A DNA stretch of 37,732 nt from Acidobacteriota bacterium. Lineage in GTDB: Bacteria > Acidobacteriota > Thermoanaerobaculia > Thermoanaerobaculales > Thermoanaerobaculaceae. Shown piece after piece: positions 1,918 to 21,116 of this stretch (the stretch's first letter is position 1; every line of letters starts with the position of its first letter). Location of the stretch: assembly GCA_004298115.1 (NCBI GenBank), contig SCRJ01000193.1, forward strand, positions 1-37,732. Direction: 5' to 3'. The notes below the pieces were generated by a model, which did no database searches, had not been told where the DNA came from, and was given only the letters and a program-made list of their open reading frames with translations. Position numbers and translations under genes: made by a program.

Positions 1918-2532
1918 GTGGCGTTCCAGTGCGGGCACGTGCTGCGCCTCCTCTCGCTCCCTGAACCGGAGCGGTTCCAGTTCGCGACGCGCAGCGCCGC
2001 AACCGAATGGGGCGCGCGGCTTGTCAGGGCCTTCTGGAAGAGCTCGGGACGGCCAACGCCCCCCGACCCGGTCCTGGCGACCGTCACGGAACAGCTTGTT
2101 TCGGGCCTGTTCACGCAGCTCCGGTCGATCCCGATCGGAATGCGGATCGACGCCTGGCTCGCTGCCGACTACCGCGCTCTTGCTGATCAGCAAGCTGAAG
2201 CACTCGCAGCGCAGCAAGAGGAGGCGCTCTCCTGCCTAAGCCCCCAGATCCGCGCCATGGTCCCGGACGAGATCGTCTCGGCAAGCATCCTCCTCAACAC
2301 CGCCTACGCGCTGTTCTGCGACCGTCTGCTCGGGGCCACGCAATACCACGTGCCCTACGCGGCCTCCGGTTTCAATAACCTCGGCGAGGCGCTCCTCAAG
2401 ATTTTCGACGAGCTGCCCACCGGGCCGTCCTCGGACCGTGCCCTCGTCGACCGCTGGGCTCGAGAGATCGGCCTCGACGGCAAGTACACCTGGGTGCCAC
2501 TGGCGTTCGCTACTTCAAGCGTGCCGTCGTGA
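1918..2532 (+). CDS. C-terminal fragment of an unknown protein cut by the IS66 element
   Basis: The frame is open from 1885, directly after the probable IS end. It reads SFKDYLVAFQCGHVLRLL and continues for about 210 residues to a stop 7 bases before the next gene. GTG at 1918 is the first start-like codon but has no convincing ribosome site. The sequence begins in the middle of a helical domain, so I read this as the 3' part of a gene whose 5' end is on the far side of the element. I do not recognise the family. It is largely helical, with a conserved-looking stretch TQLRSIPIGMRIDAWL and no evident catalytic motif. Its spacing to the TPR gene makes it the first visible member of the 1918-6436 cluster. 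Confidence 0.6.
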   Translation: MAFQCGHVLRLLSLPEPERFQFATRSAATEWGARLVRAFWKSSGRPTPPDPVLATVTEQLVSGLFTQLRSIPIGMRIDAWLAADYRALADQQAEALAAQQEEALSCLSPQIRAMVPDEIVSASILLNTAYALFCDRLLGATQYHVPYAASGFNNLGEALLKIFDELPTGPSSDRALVDRWAREIGLDGKYTWVPLAFATSSVPS

Positions 2533-2539
2533 GGATCTC

Positions 2540-3631
2540 GTGAGACCACCGATCAGATTCACCGTTGCGAGGGAGTTCCTCCCGATCCAAATCGCCCCGA
2601 GCGATCCGCGGGAGCTTGAATCCGCTTCGTTCCTCGAGGCCGCGAAGCGTTTCTACGAGAGCCAGTTCGAAGACGGCACCGTCGAGGTCAAGTCAGTCCC
2701 CGGTGGCTTGGAGGTGACCTGGGCGCCTGAAGAAGCCGGTCTCGATCCCTTCGAGTACGCCGTCGAACTCCTGCAGAAGAGGCAATACGAGGTTGCTGTC
2801 CCGTTCCTGCAGCACCTCCTGGACGACGAGCCTGATCACCCGGGAGTTCTGTTCAATCTTGGGATGGCGGAGAGCGACCTCGGCAAGCTCGACGACGCCA
2901 TCGTCCACCTCAAGACCCTCGTTGAGAAGGATCCAAAACACGGCCACGGTTGGGTCGCCCTCGGGGTCGCCCAGGCCCGGGCGGGGCAGATCGATGATGC
3001 GATCGCGGCGCTCAACGAGGCGGTGCGTATCGTTCCGGACGACCCCTACGCGCGGCGCAACCTCGGTGCGTTGTTGGGCAAGAAGGGGCTCCTGGCTGAC
3101 GCCTTGACGCACCTGCGCGAGGCGGTGCGGCTGCTTCCGGCCGACCAGCAAGCGCTTTACGGCCTGGCGCACACCCTCCTGACGCTGGGCGGTGACGACC
3201 AGGTGGCCGAGGCCGATGGGCTTTTCCAGAGGGCGGTCGCCATTGACCCCGAGAGTGACGTTGCGGAAGTCTGCCGCAAGGAGCGCGGCCAGATCGCGCA
3301 ATGCGCGTTCCGCGCCAACGCCGGTGGCCATCTCCGGATGGACGCCGTCATGTACTGCCTTGGGGCGATGCGGACCTTCGCGAAGCTGTCGAAGGAGGAC
3401 GTCCGCAAGATCGCCTTCGAGATCGCCATGCTCGGGACGAAGGGTCTCGACGTGAACGACCCGGCCCAGAAGTACCAGCTCCGCTCGCTCCCGGGCCGCT
3501 TCTCCGGCCTCCACCTCGTATCGATCGAGTACGTCGGTTTCAAGCTGGTCGATCCGTCCGTCGACCTCGGCTTCGACCTGTCACAGGAGTATCGCCAAGC
3601 TCAGCTTCTCTTCGGGGGCTCGGGAGGGTAG
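2540..3631 (+). CDS. tetratricopeptide repeat (TPR) protein
   Basis: A 363-residue protein. Residues about 70-245 form around five TPR units, recognised from A-E-LL-x-Q-AV and LG-A--GK-DDAI spacing (for example FNLGMAESDLGKLDDAIVHLKTLVEKDP). TPR solenoids bind peptides or partner proteins, so this is probably the scaffold or sensor of the cluster. The N-terminal 65 residues and the last 110 (GGHLRMDAVMYCLGAMRTF onward) are not recognised. GTG 2540 is preferred because GAGG lies just upstream and the longer frame would overlap the previous gene by about 95 bases. The stop is 2 bases before the MazG-like gene, indicating one transcript. Confidence 0.8.
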   Translation: MRPPIRFTVAREFLPIQIAPSDPRELESASFLEAAKRFYESQFEDGTVEVKSVPGGLEVTWAPEEAGLDPFEYAVELLQKRQYEVAVPFLQHLLDDEPDHPGVLFNLGMAESDLGKLDDAIVHLKTLVEKDPKHGHGWVALGVAQARAGQIDDAIAALNEAVRIVPDDPYARRNLGALLGKKGLLADALTHLREAVRLLPADQQALYGLAHTLLTLGGDDQVAEADGLFQRAVAIDPESDVAEVCRKERGQIAQCAFRANAGGHLRMDAVMYCLGAMRTFAKLSKEDVRKIAFEIAMLGTKGLDVNDPAQKYQLRSLPGRFSGLHLVSIEYVGFKLVDPSVDLGFDLSQEYRQAQLLFGGSGG

Positions 3632-3633
3632 CC

Positions 3634-3978
3634 ATGGGTCTTGAAGCGCTCACCGCTCGCGCCAACGCCATCAGGGACGCCCGGGACTGGCGCCAGTTTC
3701 ACAACCCAAAGGACGTCATGCTCTCCCTGTGCCTGGAAGCGGCCGAACTCCTGGAACACGCCCAGTGGCGCAACGGTGACGACCTGAAGGCCTATCTGGC
3801 GGAACACCGGGACGAGGTGGGCGAGGAGCTGGCCGACATCCTCTACTGGGTGCTCGTGCTCTCCGACGACCTCGGGATCGACCTCGAGGACGCCTTCCGG
3901 CGCAAGATGGACCTCAACGAGCAGCGCTATCCGGTGGACAAGGCCCGCGGCAAGGCCACGAAGTACGACAAGCTGTAG
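3634..3978 (+). CDS. MazG-like nucleotide pyrophosphohydrolase
   Basis: A 114-residue all-alpha NTP pyrophosphatase of the MazG/RS21-C6 (dCTPase-like) superfamily. These enzymes hydrolyse (d)NTPs to the monophosphate plus pyrophosphate. The metal-binding pattern is present: EAAELLEHAQW supplies the first acidic helix (E-x2-E) and EVGEELADILYW the second (E-x2-E-x2-D). Length matches the single-domain subfamily. The ATG lies 2 bases after the TPR stop, and the gene ends 10 bases before the nuclease-helicase gene, so it belongs to that unit. In this context it could deplete or cleanse nucleotides during infection or stress; that role is inference. Confidence 0.88.
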   Translation: MGLEALTARANAIRDARDWRQFHNPKDVMLSLCLEAAELLEHAQWRNGDDLKAYLAEHRDEVGEELADILYWVLVLSDDLGIDLEDAFRRKMDLNEQRYPVDKARGKATKYDKL

Positions 3979-3988
3979 GAACGCGGCG

Positions 3989-6436
3989 ATGCAGCTCTAC
4001 TGCGGCACGACCACCCAGTTCGTCGACGACACACTCCAGAACCGGATTACCGGTAGGCTCGAGGAAGCTTTCTTCACCCATTTCCGCTACCGCCCTTCTC
4101 ACAGCGAGGTGAACTCCTGGCGGAACTCCCTGCGGGCCATGTGCAACGTCGTCCAGTACGCCCGGCTCGACGACAACGGGCTCGTCTTGGAGTACCAGCT
4201 TCCCCTCACGTCGAAGCGCCTCGATTTCATGATCACAGGCCGCGACGCGCGGGGTGCCGCGAACGCGGTGATCGTCGAGCTCAAACAGTGGTCCGAGGCT
4301 CAGGCCAGCAATGTGGACGGATGTGTGGCGACCTTCGTCGCCGGAGCGGTGCGAGACGAGCTTCACCCGTCCGTCCAGGTCGGGCAGTACCACCAGTACC
4401 TGGAGGACTTCAACCCGGTGTTCTCCTCAGGGGACGTCACCCTGAGCGCCTGCAGCTACCTCCACAACTGGTCCTTTGACGCCAGGAGCGAGTTCTTTTC
4501 TTCCCGGCACAGCTCGGCCATCGCCCGGTACCCCCTGTTCGCCGGGGACCAGACCACCGGGCTCGCGACCTTTATGACGAGCCGGGTGGACCGCGGCGGC
4601 GGGTCCGAGGTCCTCCAGACCGTGCTCCAGAGCAAGTACAAGGCGAGCAAGAAACTCATGGAACACGTCGCTGGCGTGATCGCCGGCAGGCCCGAGTACG
4701 TGCTGCTCGACGAGCAGCTCGTCGTCTTCGAGACCGTGCTCGGCCTTGCGCGCTCGGAGCTCGACGGCCCGCGCCGGACGGCGCTCATCGTGAAGGGCGG
4801 GCCGGGCACCGGCAAGTCGGTCATCGCCCTGAACCTCATGAGCCGCCTGCTGCGCGACGGGTTCAACGCCCATTACGCGACCGGCTCGCGGGCGTTCACC
4901 GAGACGCTCCGGGCGATCATCGGCCGCCGCGGCGCGCCTCAGTTCATGTACTTCAACTCGTACGGCGAGGCCGAACCGGACGCGATCGACGTCCTGATCT
5001 GCGATGAGGCCCATCGCCTCCGCAAGCTGAGCGGAGACCGCTTCCGGCCGAGCCGCACCGGAAAGCCGCAGGTCGAGGAAATTCTCAACGCCGCCAAGCT
5101 CGCCGTGTTCCTCATCGACGACCGCCAGGTCGTGCGTCCGAACGAGGTCGGTTCCTCCGCCTACATCCGGGAGCATGCCGAGCGGCTCGGCTGCGAGGTG
5201 CGGGAGCACACCCTCGAAGCGCAGTTCCGGTGCGCCGGTTCGGACGGGTTCGTGAACTGGATCGCCAATACGCTTGCCGTGGAGCGAACGGCAAACGCGA
5301 TCTGGGAGGGCGACGAGCGGTTCGATTTCCGGATCTTCCCGTCCCCAGAGAGCCTCGAGCAGGCCATCCGTGCCCGCGCGGCGCAGGGCCACTCGGCGCG
5401 TCTGGCGGCGGGGTTCTGCTGGCCATGGTCGAAGCCGAACCCCGACGGCACCCTCCTGGATGACGTCGTGTTGGGCGACTGGCGCCGGCCCTGGAACGCG
5501 AGGCCGGAAGCGAAGAGGCTTGCGGCCGGCATCCCGAAGGCTCAGCTGTGGGCGCACGAACCGGGCGGGCTCGATCAAGTCGGCTGCGTTTACACCGCCC
5601 AGGGGTTCGAGTTCGACTATATCGGGGTGGTCTTCGGCCGCGACCTCCGGTACGACATGGACGCGCAGGCCTGGATCGGCGACCGGAAAGCCTCATTCGA
5701 CCGACCCGTCAAACAGGGTGGCGAAGCCTTCATCGACCTGGTCAAGAATACCTATCGCGTGCTGCTCTCCCGGGGCCTCAGGGGCTGCTACGTTCACTTC
5801 GTGGACCGCGACACCGAGCGGTTCTTCCGCACCCGCATCGACGGACGGGTGGCGGAACCTCGGCTCGACGAGTTGCTGGCGGCGCCGACCGCGGTTGAGC
5901 CGGAGCATGTCGAGCCGTTCCGGAGAGTCCCACCAGGGGACGTCCGCCCGTTCGAGACGTGTGTGCCGCTGTACGACCTCGCGGTGGCGGCCGGTCGGTT
6001 CTCGGACGCCCAGGCGATCGACGAGGTTGGCCTGGGCGATGAAGACCGCCGAGCCGGAGATTTCACCTGGGTCGAGCTGCCGGAGGCGTTTCGGCCGCAG
6101 CGCGGTCTCTTCGTCGCACGGGTCGTCGGAGACTCGATGAACCGCCGGATCCCCAACGGCGCCTGGTGCCTGTTCCGGCGCGCGTCCGCGGGCTCGCGAA
6201 ACGATCGGGTCGTCGTCGCTCAACACAGAGACATCGCGGACCCGGAGACGGGCGGCCGGTTCACCGTGAAGGTCTACGAGAGCAAGAAGGAGCGGCTGCC
6301 CGACGGCTCGTGGCGCCACACGTCCATCGTTCTACGACCGGACACGACCGCGGCCGGGTACGAGCCGATCGTCCTGGCGCCCGAAGCCGCCGCCGACCTG
6401 CGGATCGTGGCTGAGCTTGTGGCCGTTCTCGGCTGA
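3989..6436 (+). CDS. PD-(D/E)XK nuclease - DUF2075 helicase - S24 peptidase fusion
   Basis: An 815-residue multidomain protein. Residues about 60-130 carry a PD-(D/E)XK nuclease core (Asp79 in KRLDFM; Glu97 and Lys99 in VIVELKQW). Residues about 250-640 are a DUF2075/Schlafen-group-3-type superfamily 1 helicase: Walker A GGPGTGKS with Lys276, Walker B DVLICDEAHRLR, later motifs YTAQGFEFDYIGVVFG and NTYRVLLSRG. Residues about 700-815 form an S24/LexA-UmuD-like serine peptidase domain with Ser716 in VVGDSMN and Lys761 in FTVKVY, the expected Ser-Lys pair. The protein could therefore cut nucleic acid, translocate or unwind, and self-process or signal on DNA damage. It is the last gene of the TPR-MazG cluster. 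All key residues appear intact. A defence role is inferred from domains and neighbours. Confidence 0.88.
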   Translation: MQLYCGTTTQFVDDTLQNRITGRLEEAFFTHFRYRPSHSEVNSWRNSLRAMCNVVQYARLDDNGLVLEYQLPLTSKRLDFMITGRDARGAANAVIVELKQWSEAQASNVDGCVATFVAGAVRDELHPSVQVGQYHQYLEDFNPVFSSGDVTLSACSYLHNWSFDARSEFFSSRHSSAIARYPLFAGDQTTGLATFMTSRVDRGGGSEVLQTVLQSKYKASKKLMEHVAGVIAGRPEYVLLDEQLVVFETVLGLARSELDGPRRTALIVKGGPGTGKSVIALNLMSRLLRDGFNAHYATGSRAFTETLRAIIGRRGAPQFMYFNSYGEAEPDAIDVLICDEAHRLRKLSGDRFRPSRTGKPQVEEILNAAKLAVFLIDDRQVVRPNEVGSSAYIREHAERLGCEVREHTLEAQFRCAGSDGFVNWIANTLAVERTANAIWEGDERFDFRIFPSPESLEQAIRARAAQGHSARLAAGFCWPWSKPNPDGTLLDDVVLGDWRRPWNARPEAKRLAAGIPKAQLWAHEPGGLDQVGCVYTAQGFEFDYIGVVFGRDLRYDMDAQAWIGDRKASFDRPVKQGGEAFIDLVKNTYRVLLSRGLRGCYVHFVDRDTERFFRTRIDGRVAEPRLDELLAAPTAVEPEHVEPFRRVPPGDVRPFETCVPLYDLAVAAGRFSDAQAIDEVGLGDEDRRAGDFTWVELPEAFRPQRGLFVARVVGDSMNRRIPNGAWCLFRRASAGSRNDRVVVAQHRDIADPETGGRFTVKVYESKKERLPDGSWRHTSIVLRPDTTAAGYEPIVLAPEAAADLRIVAELVAVLG

Positions 6437-6942: not shown

Positions 6943-8961
6943 ATGCCGATCACTCCAGCCCAAGTCCGAGCCGCCCAGGGTGTTCAGCACGCGGCTGCTC
7001 ATGATGCCGCAGCCCAGGTACGGCTCGTAGCAGGCCCCGGGACCGGCAAGTCCTTTGCCATCGAGGAGCGCGTCCGCTGGCTCCTAGCTCAGGGGACCGC
7101 CCCGGGAGAGATCTGCGCGGTCTCCTTCACCCGGGCATCCTCGCTCGACCTGCGTCGTCGCATTCAGTCGTTCTGCCAGCAGACCGGTCAACCAACAGCC
7201 ACGAACGTCCGCGTCAGCACCCTCCATTCTCTGGCGTTGCGGACGCTGCGCGCCGGGGGCTTCCTGACGGCATATCCTGCGGAGCCGCTGGTCATGAACA
7301 CCTGGGAGTTGGAGACCATCTTCGACGCGGAGTTCGGAAGCACGCGCAATCTTGGGAAGACTCGGTGCGAGCAGGTCCGGCTCGACCACGAAGCATTCTG
7401 GAGCACGGGCCAGTGGGGACCTCCGAACTACATTCCCCCGGACCCAGCGATTTCCCCAGCGGAACGGGCCCACTTCCAGCAGTTCCACGGCCCGAGGACG
7501 CAGATCTACTCATGCGTTCTGCCGGGAGAGATCATCCGGCAATGTGTGGACCACATGAACGCGGGGACGCTTGATCCCATTGCTCTCCTCAGCATCCGTC
7601 ACCTAATCGTCGACGAATACCAAGATCTGAATCCGGTTGACCTTGAGTTCGTGGATCTCATGGCCGCCCGGGGGGTGCTTCTCTTTGTTGCGGGCGATGA
7701 CGACCAGAGCATCTATTCCTTCCGGTACGCGTCTCCGGCGGGCCTCCAGGACTTCCCAATCCGCTATCCAGCAGCGGGGCAGCACACGCTGTCCGACTGC
7801 TTCCGCTGCACGCCGGCGGTGCTTGCGGCAGGCCAAGCGGTAATCGGCGCCAATTTTGACCCAGCACGCATCTCGAAGAATCATGTCCCCCTGTACGCCA
7901 CCGCGGCGCCGCCTCAGCAGGGAGTGGTGCACCGCTGGAGCTTCACTAGCGGGGGTGTGGAGGCGCGAGCGGTGGCCGAGTCGTGTCGCGACTTAATCCA
8001 AGCCGGCATCAACCCGCGGGAAATACTCATTCTCCTCAGCAACACGCGGACTCTCTGGTCTGAATTGAGGGCGGAGTTCCAGACTGCAAGCGTGCCATGT
8101 GAACCGCCGAGAGCGGAGACGTTTCTTGACTCCGTCACGGGCCGATGCGTTCTGGCCGTCCTGCGGATCGTCTGCGACGCCGAGGACTACGTAGCGCACC
8201 GCACCGTCCTTGGTCTTCTCCGTGGGGTGGGGGTCGGGACCTGCAACTCCATCGCCGGCGCGGTCATCACCAACAATCTGAACTTTCGCGATATCTTCTA
8301 TCAGCCCCTACCAGGTAGCGTCTTCACTGGTCGTCCACTCACGGGGTTAAATCGAGCCAGAACCGTGCTGGCCCAGGCTGCGACGTGGCAGTCCACCGAC
8401 ACGCTCGCCCAGCGGGCGGCCGACATCGCGGGCATCGTGACGAGTATGTTCGGGACGCACGAGGCGCACGCGTGGCAGACGTTCGCAGCGACGCTGCCAG
8501 CGGGTGCAACGATCGGGGAGGTTCGGGACTTCCTGTGGGCCGATACGGATGAACAGCAGAGCGCCCTTCTTCAAGCGGTTTACGAACGACTCAACCAACC
8601 AATCCCGGGCGCCGGACTCCTTCCGGATCGGGTGCGCGTATTAACCATGCACGGAGCGAAAGGGCTCTCGGCCAAGGTGGTCTTCATCCCCGGACTCGAA
8701 GAGCAGATCCTACCGGGCCCGTGGCGCCAACCTTACCCAGGACTCGTATTGGAGGCGGCGCGTCTTCTCTACGTGTCGGTCACCCGAGCCAGGGGCGCGT
8801 GCGTCATCAGCTTCGCGCGGACACGCATTGTCAACGGGCAGTTCAATCAACAAGTCCCATCTCGGTTTTGCGCTCAGTTGGGGGGAACGTTTGGCTCAAG
8901 AGCGAGCGGGCTCTCTGTACCAGAGGTGCAGGCACTTGCACAGGAGTGTGCAACGCTGTGA
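6943..8961 (+). CDS. UvrD/Rep-type superfamily 1A helicase
   Basis: A 672-residue ATP-dependent 3'-5' DNA helicase. Motifs in order: Walker A GPGTGKS (Lys36), SFTRAS (motif Ia), VDEYQDLN (motif II, about residue 223), GDDDQSIYSFR (III), VRVLTMHGAKGLSAKVVFI (V) and EAARLLYVSVTRAR (VI). It is somewhat shorter than UvrD/PcrA and has no visible nuclease domain. Stand-alone UvrD-like helicases are common in defence islands and as partners of nucleases; none is directly beside it here. It heads the less GC-rich block of attC-separated ORFs and is followed after 68 bases by attC-like element 1. It could therefore be an unusually large cassette gene. Confidence 0.93.
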   Translation: MPITPAQVRAAQGVQHAAAHDAAAQVRLVAGPGTGKSFAIEERVRWLLAQGTAPGEICAVSFTRASSLDLRRRIQSFCQQTGQPTATNVRVSTLHSLALRTLRAGGFLTAYPAEPLVMNTWELETIFDAEFGSTRNLGKTRCEQVRLDHEAFWSTGQWGPPNYIPPDPAISPAERAHFQQFHGPRTQIYSCVLPGEIIRQCVDHMNAGTLDPIALLSIRHLIVDEYQDLNPVDLEFVDLMAARGVLLFVAGDDDQSIYSFRYASPAGLQDFPIRYPAAGQHTLSDCFRCTPAVLAAGQAVIGANFDPARISKNHVPLYATAAPPQQGVVHRWSFTSGGVEARAVAESCRDLIQAGINPREILILLSNTRTLWSELRAEFQTASVPCEPPRAETFLDSVTGRCVLAVLRIVCDAEDYVAHRTVLGLLRGVGVGTCNSIAGAVITNNLNFRDIFYQPLPGSVFTGRPLTGLNRARTVLAQAATWQSTDTLAQRAADIAGIVTSMFGTHEAHAWQTFAATLPAGATIGEVRDFLWADTDEQQSALLQAVYERLNQPIPGAGLLPDRVRVLTMHGAKGLSAKVVFIPGLEEQILPGPWRQPYPGLVLEAARLLYVSVTRARGACVISFARTRIVNGQFNQQVPSRFCAQLGGTFGSRASGLSVPEVQALAQECATL

Positions 8962-18814: not shown

Positions 18815-19302
18815 GCAAGAAGCGGTGTTCGATCTGCGGCAAGGGGGCGTTGGAGATCAGACGCGAGCCTCGCCGCTACGGGTGCGGGATCGACGTGATC
18901 CTCGTGGACATCGAGGTCCGCCACTGCCCGGCGTGTGGCGAGGAGTTCGAGGTCATCCCCAACATCGAGCGGCTGCATCAGGCCATCGCCCGGGACCTCG
19001 CCAAGTCCGACGCGCGCCTGCGCGCCGGCGAGATTCGCTTCCTGCGCACGTACCTCGGGTACTCGAGCGTTGACTTTGCCCGGCTCATGGGCGTGAGTCC
19101 GGAGACGGTGTCGCGGTGGGAGAGCAAGGGGGCGCCGAAGCGGATGGCGCTGTCGGCCGAGCGGCTGCTGCGCCTGATGGTGCTCCAGAACGAGCCGATC
19201 CGTTCCTACGGGCTCGAGGGTGCGGGGGCCAGCGAAGGACCGCCGGCGCAGCCGCTGCGTCTCCGGGTCACGCCCACCGGCTGGGAATCCGCCGCGGCCT
19301 AA
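18811..19302 (+). CDS. MqsA-family antitoxin
   Basis: A 163-residue antitoxin and regulator. The N-terminal zinc domain has CxxC pairs (Cys6/Cys9 in CSICG, Cys39/Cys42 in CPACG). The C-terminal half is an XRE-type helix-turn-helix (FLRTYLGYSSVDFARLMGVSPETVSRWESKG). It should neutralise the upstream DUF4258 toxin and repress the operon. AAGGGG precedes the ATG. The stop codon overlaps that of the convergent DUF2779 gene by 4 bases (19299-19302), leaving no room for a terminator between them. Confidence 0.9.
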   Translation: MSKKRCSICGKGALEIRREPRRYGCGIDVILVDIEVRHCPACGEEFEVIPNIERLHQAIARDLAKSDARLRAGEIRFLRTYLGYSSVDFARLMGVSPETVSRWESKGAPKRMALSAERLLRLMVLQNEPIRSYGLEGAGASEGPPAQPLRLRVTPTGWESAAA

Positions 19303-21116
19303 GCCAACTCGCGCAGTCGCTCCAGCAGCCTGACCATACTCATGGTGTCGACGGCGCAGTAGCGGAGCAAGGCGTCGCGCAGGTGCGCTCGCTCGGCGGC
19401 GGTCATGGTCTCGCCGTGGAACAGCAGGCGCACGAGCTCGACGGCCGCGGTGGCGCCTTCGGCAACTTCGAGATCGGCGTAGGGGGAGCGGGAAGGGGAT
19501 TGATTCGTCCCGGGTGAGGGCGGGTTCGGAGGGGTTGGCGGTGACCACGAGATTGCTTCGTCGTCCCGCCCGTCGGCGGGACTCCTCGCAATGACCGGTT
19601 GTGCGGAGGAAGGAGGCGTCGCAGCGATCGTTCCCTCCTCTGTCATTGCGAGTCCCGCCGCAGGCGGGACGAAGCAATCTCGAGGTCCTGGGAGGGACGG
19701 TGGGCACCCAGTTGGGGACGGGATTGCTTCGTCGTCCCGCCCGTCGGCGGGACTCCTCGCAATGACAGTGGGGTCGGACGGGATTGCGTCGTCGCTTCGC
19801 TCCTCGCAGTGACCGGAAGGGGTGGGACGACCCGCAATGACAGCGGGGACGAGGGCGGGGAGGACGGACTTGAGGCTGAAGCTGCCGTGGAAGTCGGGGT
19901 GGTAGACGTGCGCGCGGACGATCGGCAGCGGGTCGGCAAGCCGCCCGGCGATGGCGAGCAGGTCGTCGGCAAGCTCGGGCACGGCGTCGGCGAGGCGCTC
20001 GATGCAGCCGCGCTCGAAGCCGGCGTTGTAGGCGACGACCGTGCGGGCGCCGGCGCACGCCGCGACGAGCGCGCGCGCCAGCTCCGGGCGCGGGTCGCCG
20101 GGGCCGTCCGCGAGCCACTCGTGGTGCACGAGCGTCTCGCCGGCGGCCTCGACGTCGAAGCTGAACTGCACCGGCACCTGCTCGTACGGGTGGCAGCCCT
20201 CCCACACCGGGATCGCCGGGGCGACGGTCTCGAAGTCGAGGAACGCGAGAGGCGAATCGAAGACGCGCAGCGCCCGGTCGAGGCCAGGCTCGACGACGAT
20301 GCGTCCGGTCAGCACAGCCTCGCGCTGGCGCGCCTGGACGGCGTTGAGGCCGTCGGCGGGCAGCTCGGCGATCGTCTCGAACCCGGCGGCGATCAGCGCC
20401 GCGCCGCCGTGCGGCGCGCGGTAGAGCGTGCTGACGTGGTGCTCGGGCACGCCGGCCCAGCAGCGGCTCATGAACGGGCACTCGTACGGCTTGGTGCAGT
20501 GCTCGCCGATCGGCACGTCGGGGAGGCCGCCCGCGAGCATGCGCAGCTGGCCGGCGATCAGCTCCGGCAGCTCGGGCTGCCACGCCTCGGCCGCGCCGGT
20601 GACGTCCTCGCGGACGAAGAGGTCCTCGAGGTCGGGGAACGTGCACTCGCGGTTGAGGTGCATCAGCTCGGCGCCCTCGACGTCGAGGCCGGCGGCGCGC
20701 AGGACGTGGAGCTGGACCGCGACGTCCGGGATGTGCTCGTCCTTGATCCTGGTGGAGGACTTCACCTCGATCAGGCGGAAGCGGTCGCCGTCGCGCTCGA
20801 GGATGTCCACCGCGGCATAGACGCCGCCCGAGTCGAACGACGCCTCGTAGACCGCCGGGACGCGCTGCTCGAGCAGGCGCTTCGTCGTCGCGAGCCGGCG
20901 GGCGAAGGCGTTGTGCGGCGCATCCACCAGCGCCCCGCCGGGCACGTACGTGCGCGCCACCTCGCCAACGCGCGTGCCCTGGTCGAACACCGCCTGCTGC
21001 GCCGGGGTCGGGACCAGCTCCGGCGCGTCCGGCTCGTGCACCTTCCACCACAGCTGCTTGTGGCACTGGAGCCCGGCCGTGAACCGGGTCTTCGACAGGC
21101 GGTATCGGCTGGCCAT
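19299..21116 (-). CDS. DUF2779 protein: Cas4-like nuclease fused to DEDD exonuclease, with repeat insertion
   Basis: A 605-residue protein. Residues 1-220 resemble a Cas4-type PD-(D/E)XK nuclease: Asp104, then Glu117 and Lys119 in LIEVKSS, with Cys18, Cys207, Cys213 and Cys219 positioned for an iron-sulfur cluster. Residues about 290-605 are an RNase H-fold exonuclease (DUF2779): LDFET (Asp294, Glu296), VAYNAGFERG and YCAVD (Asp590). Between motifs two and three, residues about 426-543 are low-complexity and contain VIARSPADGRDDEAI twice; this is the translated CATTGCGAG repeat. The insertion keeps the frame and adds about 118 residues. The protein presumably degrades nucleic acid; its biological role is unknown. 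Confidence 0.85.
   Translation of the reverse strand: MASRYRLSKTRFTAGLQCHKQLWWKVHEPDAPELVPTPAQQAVFDQGTRVGEVARTYVPGGALVDAPHNAFARRLATTKRLLEQRVPAVYEASFDSGGVYAAVDILERDGDRFRLIEVKSSTRIKDEHIPDVAVQLHVLRAAGLDVEGAELMHLNRECTFPDLEDLFVREDVTGAAEAWQPELPELIAGQLRMLAGGLPDVPIGEHCTKPYECPFMSRCWAGVPEHHVSTLYRAPHGGAALIAAGFETIAELPADGLNAVQARQREAVLTGRIVVEPGLDRALRVFDSPLAFLDFETVAPAIPVWEGCHPYEQVPVQFSFDVEAAGETLVHHEWLADGPGDPRPELARALVAACAGARTVVAYNAGFERGCIERLADAVPELADDLLAIAGRLADPLPIVRAHVYHPDFHGSFSLKSVLPALVPAVIAGRPTPSGHCEERSDDAIPSDPTVIARSPADGRDDEAIPSPTGCPPSLPGPRDCFVPPAAGLAMTEEGTIAATPPSSAQPVIARSPADGRDDEAISWSPPTPPNPPSPGTNQSPSRSPYADLEVAEGATAAVELVRLLFHGETMTAAERAHLRDALLRYCAVDTMSMVRLLERLRELA
19547..19814. repeat. four CATTGCGAG palindromic modules inside the DUF2779 gene
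   Basis: Modules lie at about 19547-19595, 19641-19687, 19720-19767 and 19780-19814, in alternating orientation. Each pairs a GTCATTGCGAG end with a GAAGCAATC end around a short hairpin such as TCCCGCC...GGCGGGA. They fall within the coding frame and create no stop codon. Confidence 0.85.

Follow-up and report, generated by a model that had tools for sequence, protein, structure and literature searches.

Four closely spaced genes downstream of an insertion sequence, at positions 1918-6436 of an Acidobacteriota contig, raised the question of whether they form an anti-phage defence system, as the first-pass annotation had proposed. The window analysed here (37,732 nucleotides) spans contig C60 entirely; the draft genome to which it belongs is 3.97 Mb in size. 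An IS66-family element (1-1897, + strand) is cut by the contig start, with its left end outside the contig and its right end, read directly from the sequence, near 1897; its transposase (305-1831, + strand) matched Pfam DDE_Tnp_IS66 at 1.3e-76. The genes that follow, A to D, are + strand ORFs separated by 7 bp (A/B), 2 bp (B/C), and 10 bp (C/D), and the ORF coordinates confirmed the co-directional arrangement and gaps as first described. B, C, and D are predicted to be intact in the window. The domain assignments also held: TPR, MazG, helicase, and S24 peptidase domains were recovered by Pfam, and the nuclease by its invariant residues. The set had been described as matching no named system, and none of the PADLOC systems of 2023 covered it; in the open-licence literature we found no named system or paper for the set or for the S24 tail of D, which leaves priority unproven.

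Gene D (3989-6436, + strand, 815 aa) was assigned by Pfam, alignment, and structure as a PD-(D/E)XK-like nuclease joined to an SLFN-g3 SF1 helicase and an S24 tail. Pfam gave no match in the N-terminal 240 residues. Within the nuclease domain (3989-4588, + strand), D79 (4223-4225), E97 (4277-4279), K99 (4283-4285), and the QxxxY motif (Q130, Y134) were invariant in ten homologues, and the predicted topology and strand-helix order of this region fit PD-(D/E)XK, with pLDDT mostly 74-94. The residues and the model together indicate a PD-(D/E)XK-like nuclease of putative activity. The helicase domain (4778-5806, + strand) matched SLFN-g3/DUF2075 (PF09848) at 5.9e-84 over residues 264-606 and profile positions 2-354 of 354, that is, over the whole domain, with the Walker A motif GGPGTGKS (270-277) and DEAH (339-342) both invariant. 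The model of D had a mean pLDDT of 66 and was fair to good for most of 1-470 and 545-615; its helicase matched SF1 enzymes (UvrD, Z 17.6). Human Schlafen group III proteins (SLFN11, SLFN14) share the same Pfam helicase family; D differs from them in that its helicase is preceded by a PD-(D/E)XK-like domain, apparently active as judged from its sequence, and the Schlafen RNase core was not found. SLFN11 and SLFN14 also matched D in structure, at Z ~15.7; superposition of D residues 5-606 onto SLFN11 398-899 gave an rmsd of 18 Å over several domains, and therefore domain placement differs between the two. A Foldseek/VIA search with whole D returned matches filled by the helicase, in which a nuclease-domain match was not isolated.

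Against PADLOC, D gave weak matches, mostly to its helicase (Nhi 1e-7, AbiO 5e-9, PDC-S41 1e-12). Nhi and AbiO resemble D in that a single protein combines a nuclease with an SF1-type helicase, and their profiles match the D helicase. To our knowledge Nhi has no MazG, zincin, or S24 component, and its match was partial (E 1e-7), covering residues 236-390 of the window D and leaving the D nuclease domain unmatched. Phage SSB has been reported as the trigger of Nhi (PMC10732053).

Which genes belong with D was addressed through gene C (3634-3978, + strand, 114 aa), a MazG-type nucleotide pyrophosphohydrolase by Pfam and alignment. It matched MazG-like (5e-16) and MazG (4e-7), both above cut-off, and its metal-binding motif ExxE...ExxD was intact, with E35, E38, E65, and D68 invariant in the alignment. 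Among 34 D loci (E<1e-150, with at least 500 bp of flank on both sides), a same-strand MazG lay within 500 bp of D in 19, mostly 6-80 bp away, and a nearby same-strand MazG was absent in the other 15. A looser count of 23/38 admits contig-edge loci if MazG is present, a rule that favours the pair hypothesis. Beyond the 19, Halomonas locus L028 carries MazG ~140 bp past the S24 tail. The pair occurs in Acidobacteriota, Actinomycetota, Bacillota (L056), haloarchaea (L055), and phage contigs, and catalytic residues are kept on both sides of it. In 100 genomes, MazG (E<1e-10) was found only in the two with full-length D, G000 and G058 (2/2 with D vs 0/98 without; Fisher p ~2e-4). In 72,556 plasmid records, D was present in at least 10 of the 19 with this MazG vs ~0.01 expected, an expectation that disregards relatedness and record size. 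Because MazG and D co-occur in both genomes and plasmids, the gene arrangement is beyond chance. The first-pass annotation had stated that a lack of conserved co-occurrence would refute its proposal; instead, the MazG and D pair recurred in different phyla and domains, and six loci had TPR, MazG, and D together, so the proposal was not refuted and is supported in part. The annotation had treated the four genes as one unit, of which the MazG and D core stood and the TPR part as a fixed member did not: MazG and D are the constant core, and the TPR part is optional. The idea that this MazG serves D exclusively was rejected, with no D nearby in 76/80 viral MazG loci.

The optional part is built from genes A and B. 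Gene B (2540-3631, + strand, 363 aa, GTG start) contains TPR repeats by Pfam and a conserved C-terminal domain (residues ~261-363), which corresponds to the C-terminal end of fused TPR-zincins. A single protein joins the TPR part to an HExxH part and the B C-terminal part in L098 (Acidobacteriota), in L081 (Microcystis phage Mwe-JY31), and in L073 (a Hymenobacter plasmid), and Marivirga locus L052 carries a frame-broken version of this fusion. Gene A is a remnant (1898-2532, + strand) delimited by alignment to relatives, with an ORF of 204 aa (1918-2532) from the first available start, a GTG at 1918. It had no Pfam family match; it aligned (26%) to the protein at 5833-6636 of L103, an IMG/VR phage contig, and it also aligned to the middle domain of the fused TPR-zincins L098, L081, and L073. 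The HExxH motif reads HECGH in L103, HELEH in L098, HELVH in L081, and HEIVH in L073. At the corresponding position of gene A (1924-1938, + strand), a few codons past its start at the IS66 end, the sequence reads FQCGH, with the His and Glu lost. Relatives of gene A thus appear zinc-peptidase-like by the motif alone; an AlphaFold model of A, at pLDDT 41, was left out of this call. The alignment indicates that IS66 removed the N-terminus of A and that two key motif residues are gone. Truncated by IS66 and left with a degenerate motif, gene A is probably dead, as judged from one sequence, and the window copy of the set probably lacks a functional zinc-peptidase-like part.

These comparisons revised the earlier view of both genes. 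A had been called an unknown protein truncated by an IS; the truncation stands, and the gene product groups with the TPR protein and has zinc-peptidase-like counterparts in relatives. B had been called a scaffold; the TPR assignment is correct and the scaffold role covers only part of it, as a zinc-peptidase-like domain accompanies TPR in relatives. TPR/zincin components, MazG, and D occur together in the window, L103, L098, L081, L073, and L052, and L103 has all four genes, arranged as B, A, MazG, D. As a constant component of the cassette, the TPR-zincin was rejected, being confined to these six loci. Separately, Thauera plasmid pTha01 (L072, 7947-9026) carries a homologue of B, 38% identical over 94%, that keeps the C-terminal domain; it adjoins IS elements, and no MazG or DUF2075 gene is annotated nearby.

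We further investigated where D resides. The D profile matched in 12/396 Acidobacteriota genomes and in 26/396 genomes of the phylum of G449, a Nitriliruptorales MAG; one scan of genome contigs yielded two loci only. Viral contigs were searched with the D alignment profile, and plasmids and phages with the D sequence itself. With the single D sequence as query, viral contigs gave no match; the alignment profile did find matches there. D was found on plasmids and in Microcystis phage Mwe-JY31. In L103 the cassette sits between the major head and portal/terminase genes on the opposite strand. In L105 the MazG and D pair adjoins endolysin and tail J genes at a prophage end, with a tRNA-dihydrouridine synthase-like gene, read directly from the sequence, on the other flank. 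The Priestia pair adjoins an MrcB_N protein and type I restriction-modification genes, and the Hymenobacter pair adjoins methyltransferase and restriction genes. Neighbourhoods of phage modules and restriction genes are typical of defence cargo. Chromosomal copies in several loci had no phage genes seen nearby.

Carriage on plasmids and prophages, the proximity of restriction genes, and a tail common to restriction enzymes made defence the best reading, and we consider it reasonably probable that MazG and D form the core of a mobile, restriction-like anti-phage cassette. Reading defence from neighbours is guilt by association and falls short of proof. Its location among phage structural genes in L103 and at the end of a prophage in L105, together with the commonness of MazG in phages, would also suit a role of the cassette as a phage or plasmid counter-measure, in which MazG and D act against host DNA or competing elements for takeover or superinfection exclusion. 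We regard this as improbable, given that several loci are chromosomal copies near which no phage genes were seen, and given the finding of D beside or near MazG in only 4/80 viral MazG loci, which indicates that phage MazG is usually something else. An equally unlikely reading is a DNA-damage or repair cassette, with MazG cleaning aberrant nucleotides, D processing damaged forks, and the tail tying both to SOS. House-cleaning roles of MazG are established, the LexA-like tail is present, and the SF1 helicase fold of D is common to UvrD and RecD2, all of which fit repair; the patchy distribution in the two sets of 396 genomes, the plasmid and phage carriage, the restriction-gene neighbours, and the same tail on restriction enzymes argue against it. 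If the defence reading is true, a widely distributed candidate system is added to the nuclease-helicase class, MazG acquires a defined genetic partner for a defensive role, and prokaryotic Schlafen-type helicases become linked to restriction. In one contig (G273 contig 392, L153/L101), a MazG and D pair and a separate S24-tailed Res-type enzyme ~7 kb away were observed, an arrangement that resembles a small defence island.

As a candidate defence cassette, the set was compared with known nuclease-protease pairs. In protease Hachiman and Canu, a nuclease, a protease, and in Hachiman also a helicase act together, and caspase (Canu) loci include TPR domains (PMC12799240). In those systems a pro-nuclease is the target of a separate protein, either a trypsin-like protease or a caspase (PMC12799240), whereas the cassette has an HExxH-like protein and a LexA-type tail in cis. 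Hachiman profiles (PADLOC, E<=0.01) gave no match to A-D. The DefensePredictor report lists MazG among predicted, unvalidated defence domains, in passages that name no nuclease-helicase partner (PMC13092281); the MazG listed there may or may not belong to this cassette.

The tail of D (5888-6433, + strand) matched Pfam Peptidase_S24 at 9e-6. The first-pass annotation had rightly placed a peptidase domain here and missed its LexA-type nature and its sharing with other effectors; the shared LexA-like tail is the more surprising result and lies outside what was claimed then. By comparison with homologous tails, the predicted cleavage site is A668-G669 (5990-5995), with Ser716 (6134-6136) and Lys761 (6269-6271) as the dyad (all + strand), so both the Ser-Lys dyad and the Ala-Gly site of the S24 family are present. 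Ser and Lys were each conserved in 43/43 homologous tails; at the cleavage site, 42/42 had Ala-Ala and 40/42 had the Gly. LexA was the nearest PDB relative, by a weak match; with the tail of the D model at pLDDT <40, claims on the tail draw on sequence only. The tail shares the dyad and Ala-Gly site with LexA and UmuD, differs in being without a DNA-binding HTH, and is fused, like the other tails, to effector enzymes of 600-1850 aa. Spacings in the tails are 48 from Ala-Gly to Ser and 45 from Ser to Lys, longer than those of LexA (35 and 37). The D tail is of LexA type and apparently cleavage-competent.

Searched against 396 Acidobacteriota genomes, a tail profile gave 40 matches in 33 of them, and most of these matches fell within ORFs of 800-2077 aa. 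The tailed bodies were HsdR (n=10), a DEAD/MZB YprA-like helicase of ~2000 aa (n=10), Res/BPTD_3080 (n=5), type ISP (n=4), EcoEI-type HsdR with S24 near the N-terminus (n=3), the SLFN nuclease-helicase (n=4, including Halomonas, with L275 as a fifth), and a few others. We found no description of this tail on HsdR or defence helicases in open-licence papers. The S24 tail is absent from most D genes and is thus not essential to the core; the tailed D genes are those of the window and four other loci (L031, L086, L275, and L028), and MazG adjoins all five, in L028 downstream of the tail. In the tail tree, which predates the fifth SLFN tail (L275), the four SLFN tails and the HsdR tail of L030 grouped together with support of 100/99, HsdR nesting within the group; this HsdR tail was also the closest in identity (56%) to the window tail. 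Several body classes require more than one change on the tree, and most classes also cluster. Because HsdR nests among the SLFN tails and several classes change more than once, the tree indicates that the tail has moved between effectors. Its conservation bears on whether it cuts. LexA and UmuD C-terminal domains dimerise, and the S24 tail could be a non-cutting dimerisation or docking module whose conserved dyad is an inherited relic; we consider this doubtful, since Ser and Lys (43/43) and Ala-Ala (42/42) are kept across unrelated, otherwise divergent enzymes, which suggests selection for catalysis and for a cleavage site.

Several further S24-related genes were seen. YprA-like DEAD/MZB helicases with S24 tails, unrelated to D, occur in L041, L042, L045, L047-L050, L146, L148, and L149. 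In L039, L043, L139, L141, L142, L144, and L147, the S24-tailed HsdR has an ImmA/IrrE-type M78 peptidase gene in its vicinity, and in L039 both are within a complete type I locus (HsdM, HsdS). A small protein in L154 (4122-4910) fuses an S24 domain to a DUF3037 domain.

With defence preferred and a cleaving tail favoured, a mechanism can be proposed. D would load on invading or replicating DNA, unwind it, and cut it, and MazG would hydrolyse nucleoside triphosphates, thereby starving replication or clearing altered nucleotides. The TPR and zinc-peptidase-like protein, present in some lineages as one or two genes, may sense infection and/or cleave a partner. Through its dyad and Ala-Ala-Gly site, the tail would cleave itself, probably stimulated by a RecA filament, and release the nuclease-helicase from the tail. 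The RecA dependence follows LexA and UmuD; other S24 proteins need no RecA. A cut at A668-G669 would leave the D body ending in ...LAVAA, and the cleaved bodies of other tails would end in -AAA or -VAA. LexA cleavage yields an N-fragment that terminates in VAA and is a substrate for degradation by ClpXP. Because the -VAA end resembles this terminus recognised by ClpXP, the likelier direction would be that the nuclease is shut down once the cell's own DNA is damaged, so that restriction alleviation is built into the enzyme; this direction is favoured, at modest odds, over the alternative of activation. One degron model cannot cover all tailed enzymes, because S24 lies near the N-terminus of EcoEI-type HsdR, where cleavage leaves no C-terminal degron on the body. 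That the D tail acts as an SOS-linked switch is a real possibility, somewhat short of an even chance. The broader proposal, that a LexA-type domain was repeatedly recruited onto unrelated restriction and defence enzymes as a general SOS-coupling switch, in which self-DNA damage might, for instance, lead to exposure of a ClpXP degron on the effector, is put forward more tentatively still. If it is true, the shared tail is a switch built into the enzymes, and the old question of how a restriction enzyme spares its own chromosome after DNA damage becomes testable.

Two other observations were made elsewhere in the window. A UvrD-family helicase (6943-8961) had GajB as its closest PADLOC profile (1.8e-40), and the GajA profile gave no match among the tested neighbours of this helicase. 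In the nuclease-like gene at 19299-21116 (- strand), stretches at ~19400-20000 read like HCEERSDDAI and VIARSPADGRDDEAI, and this suggests that palindromic repeats have been inserted in frame.
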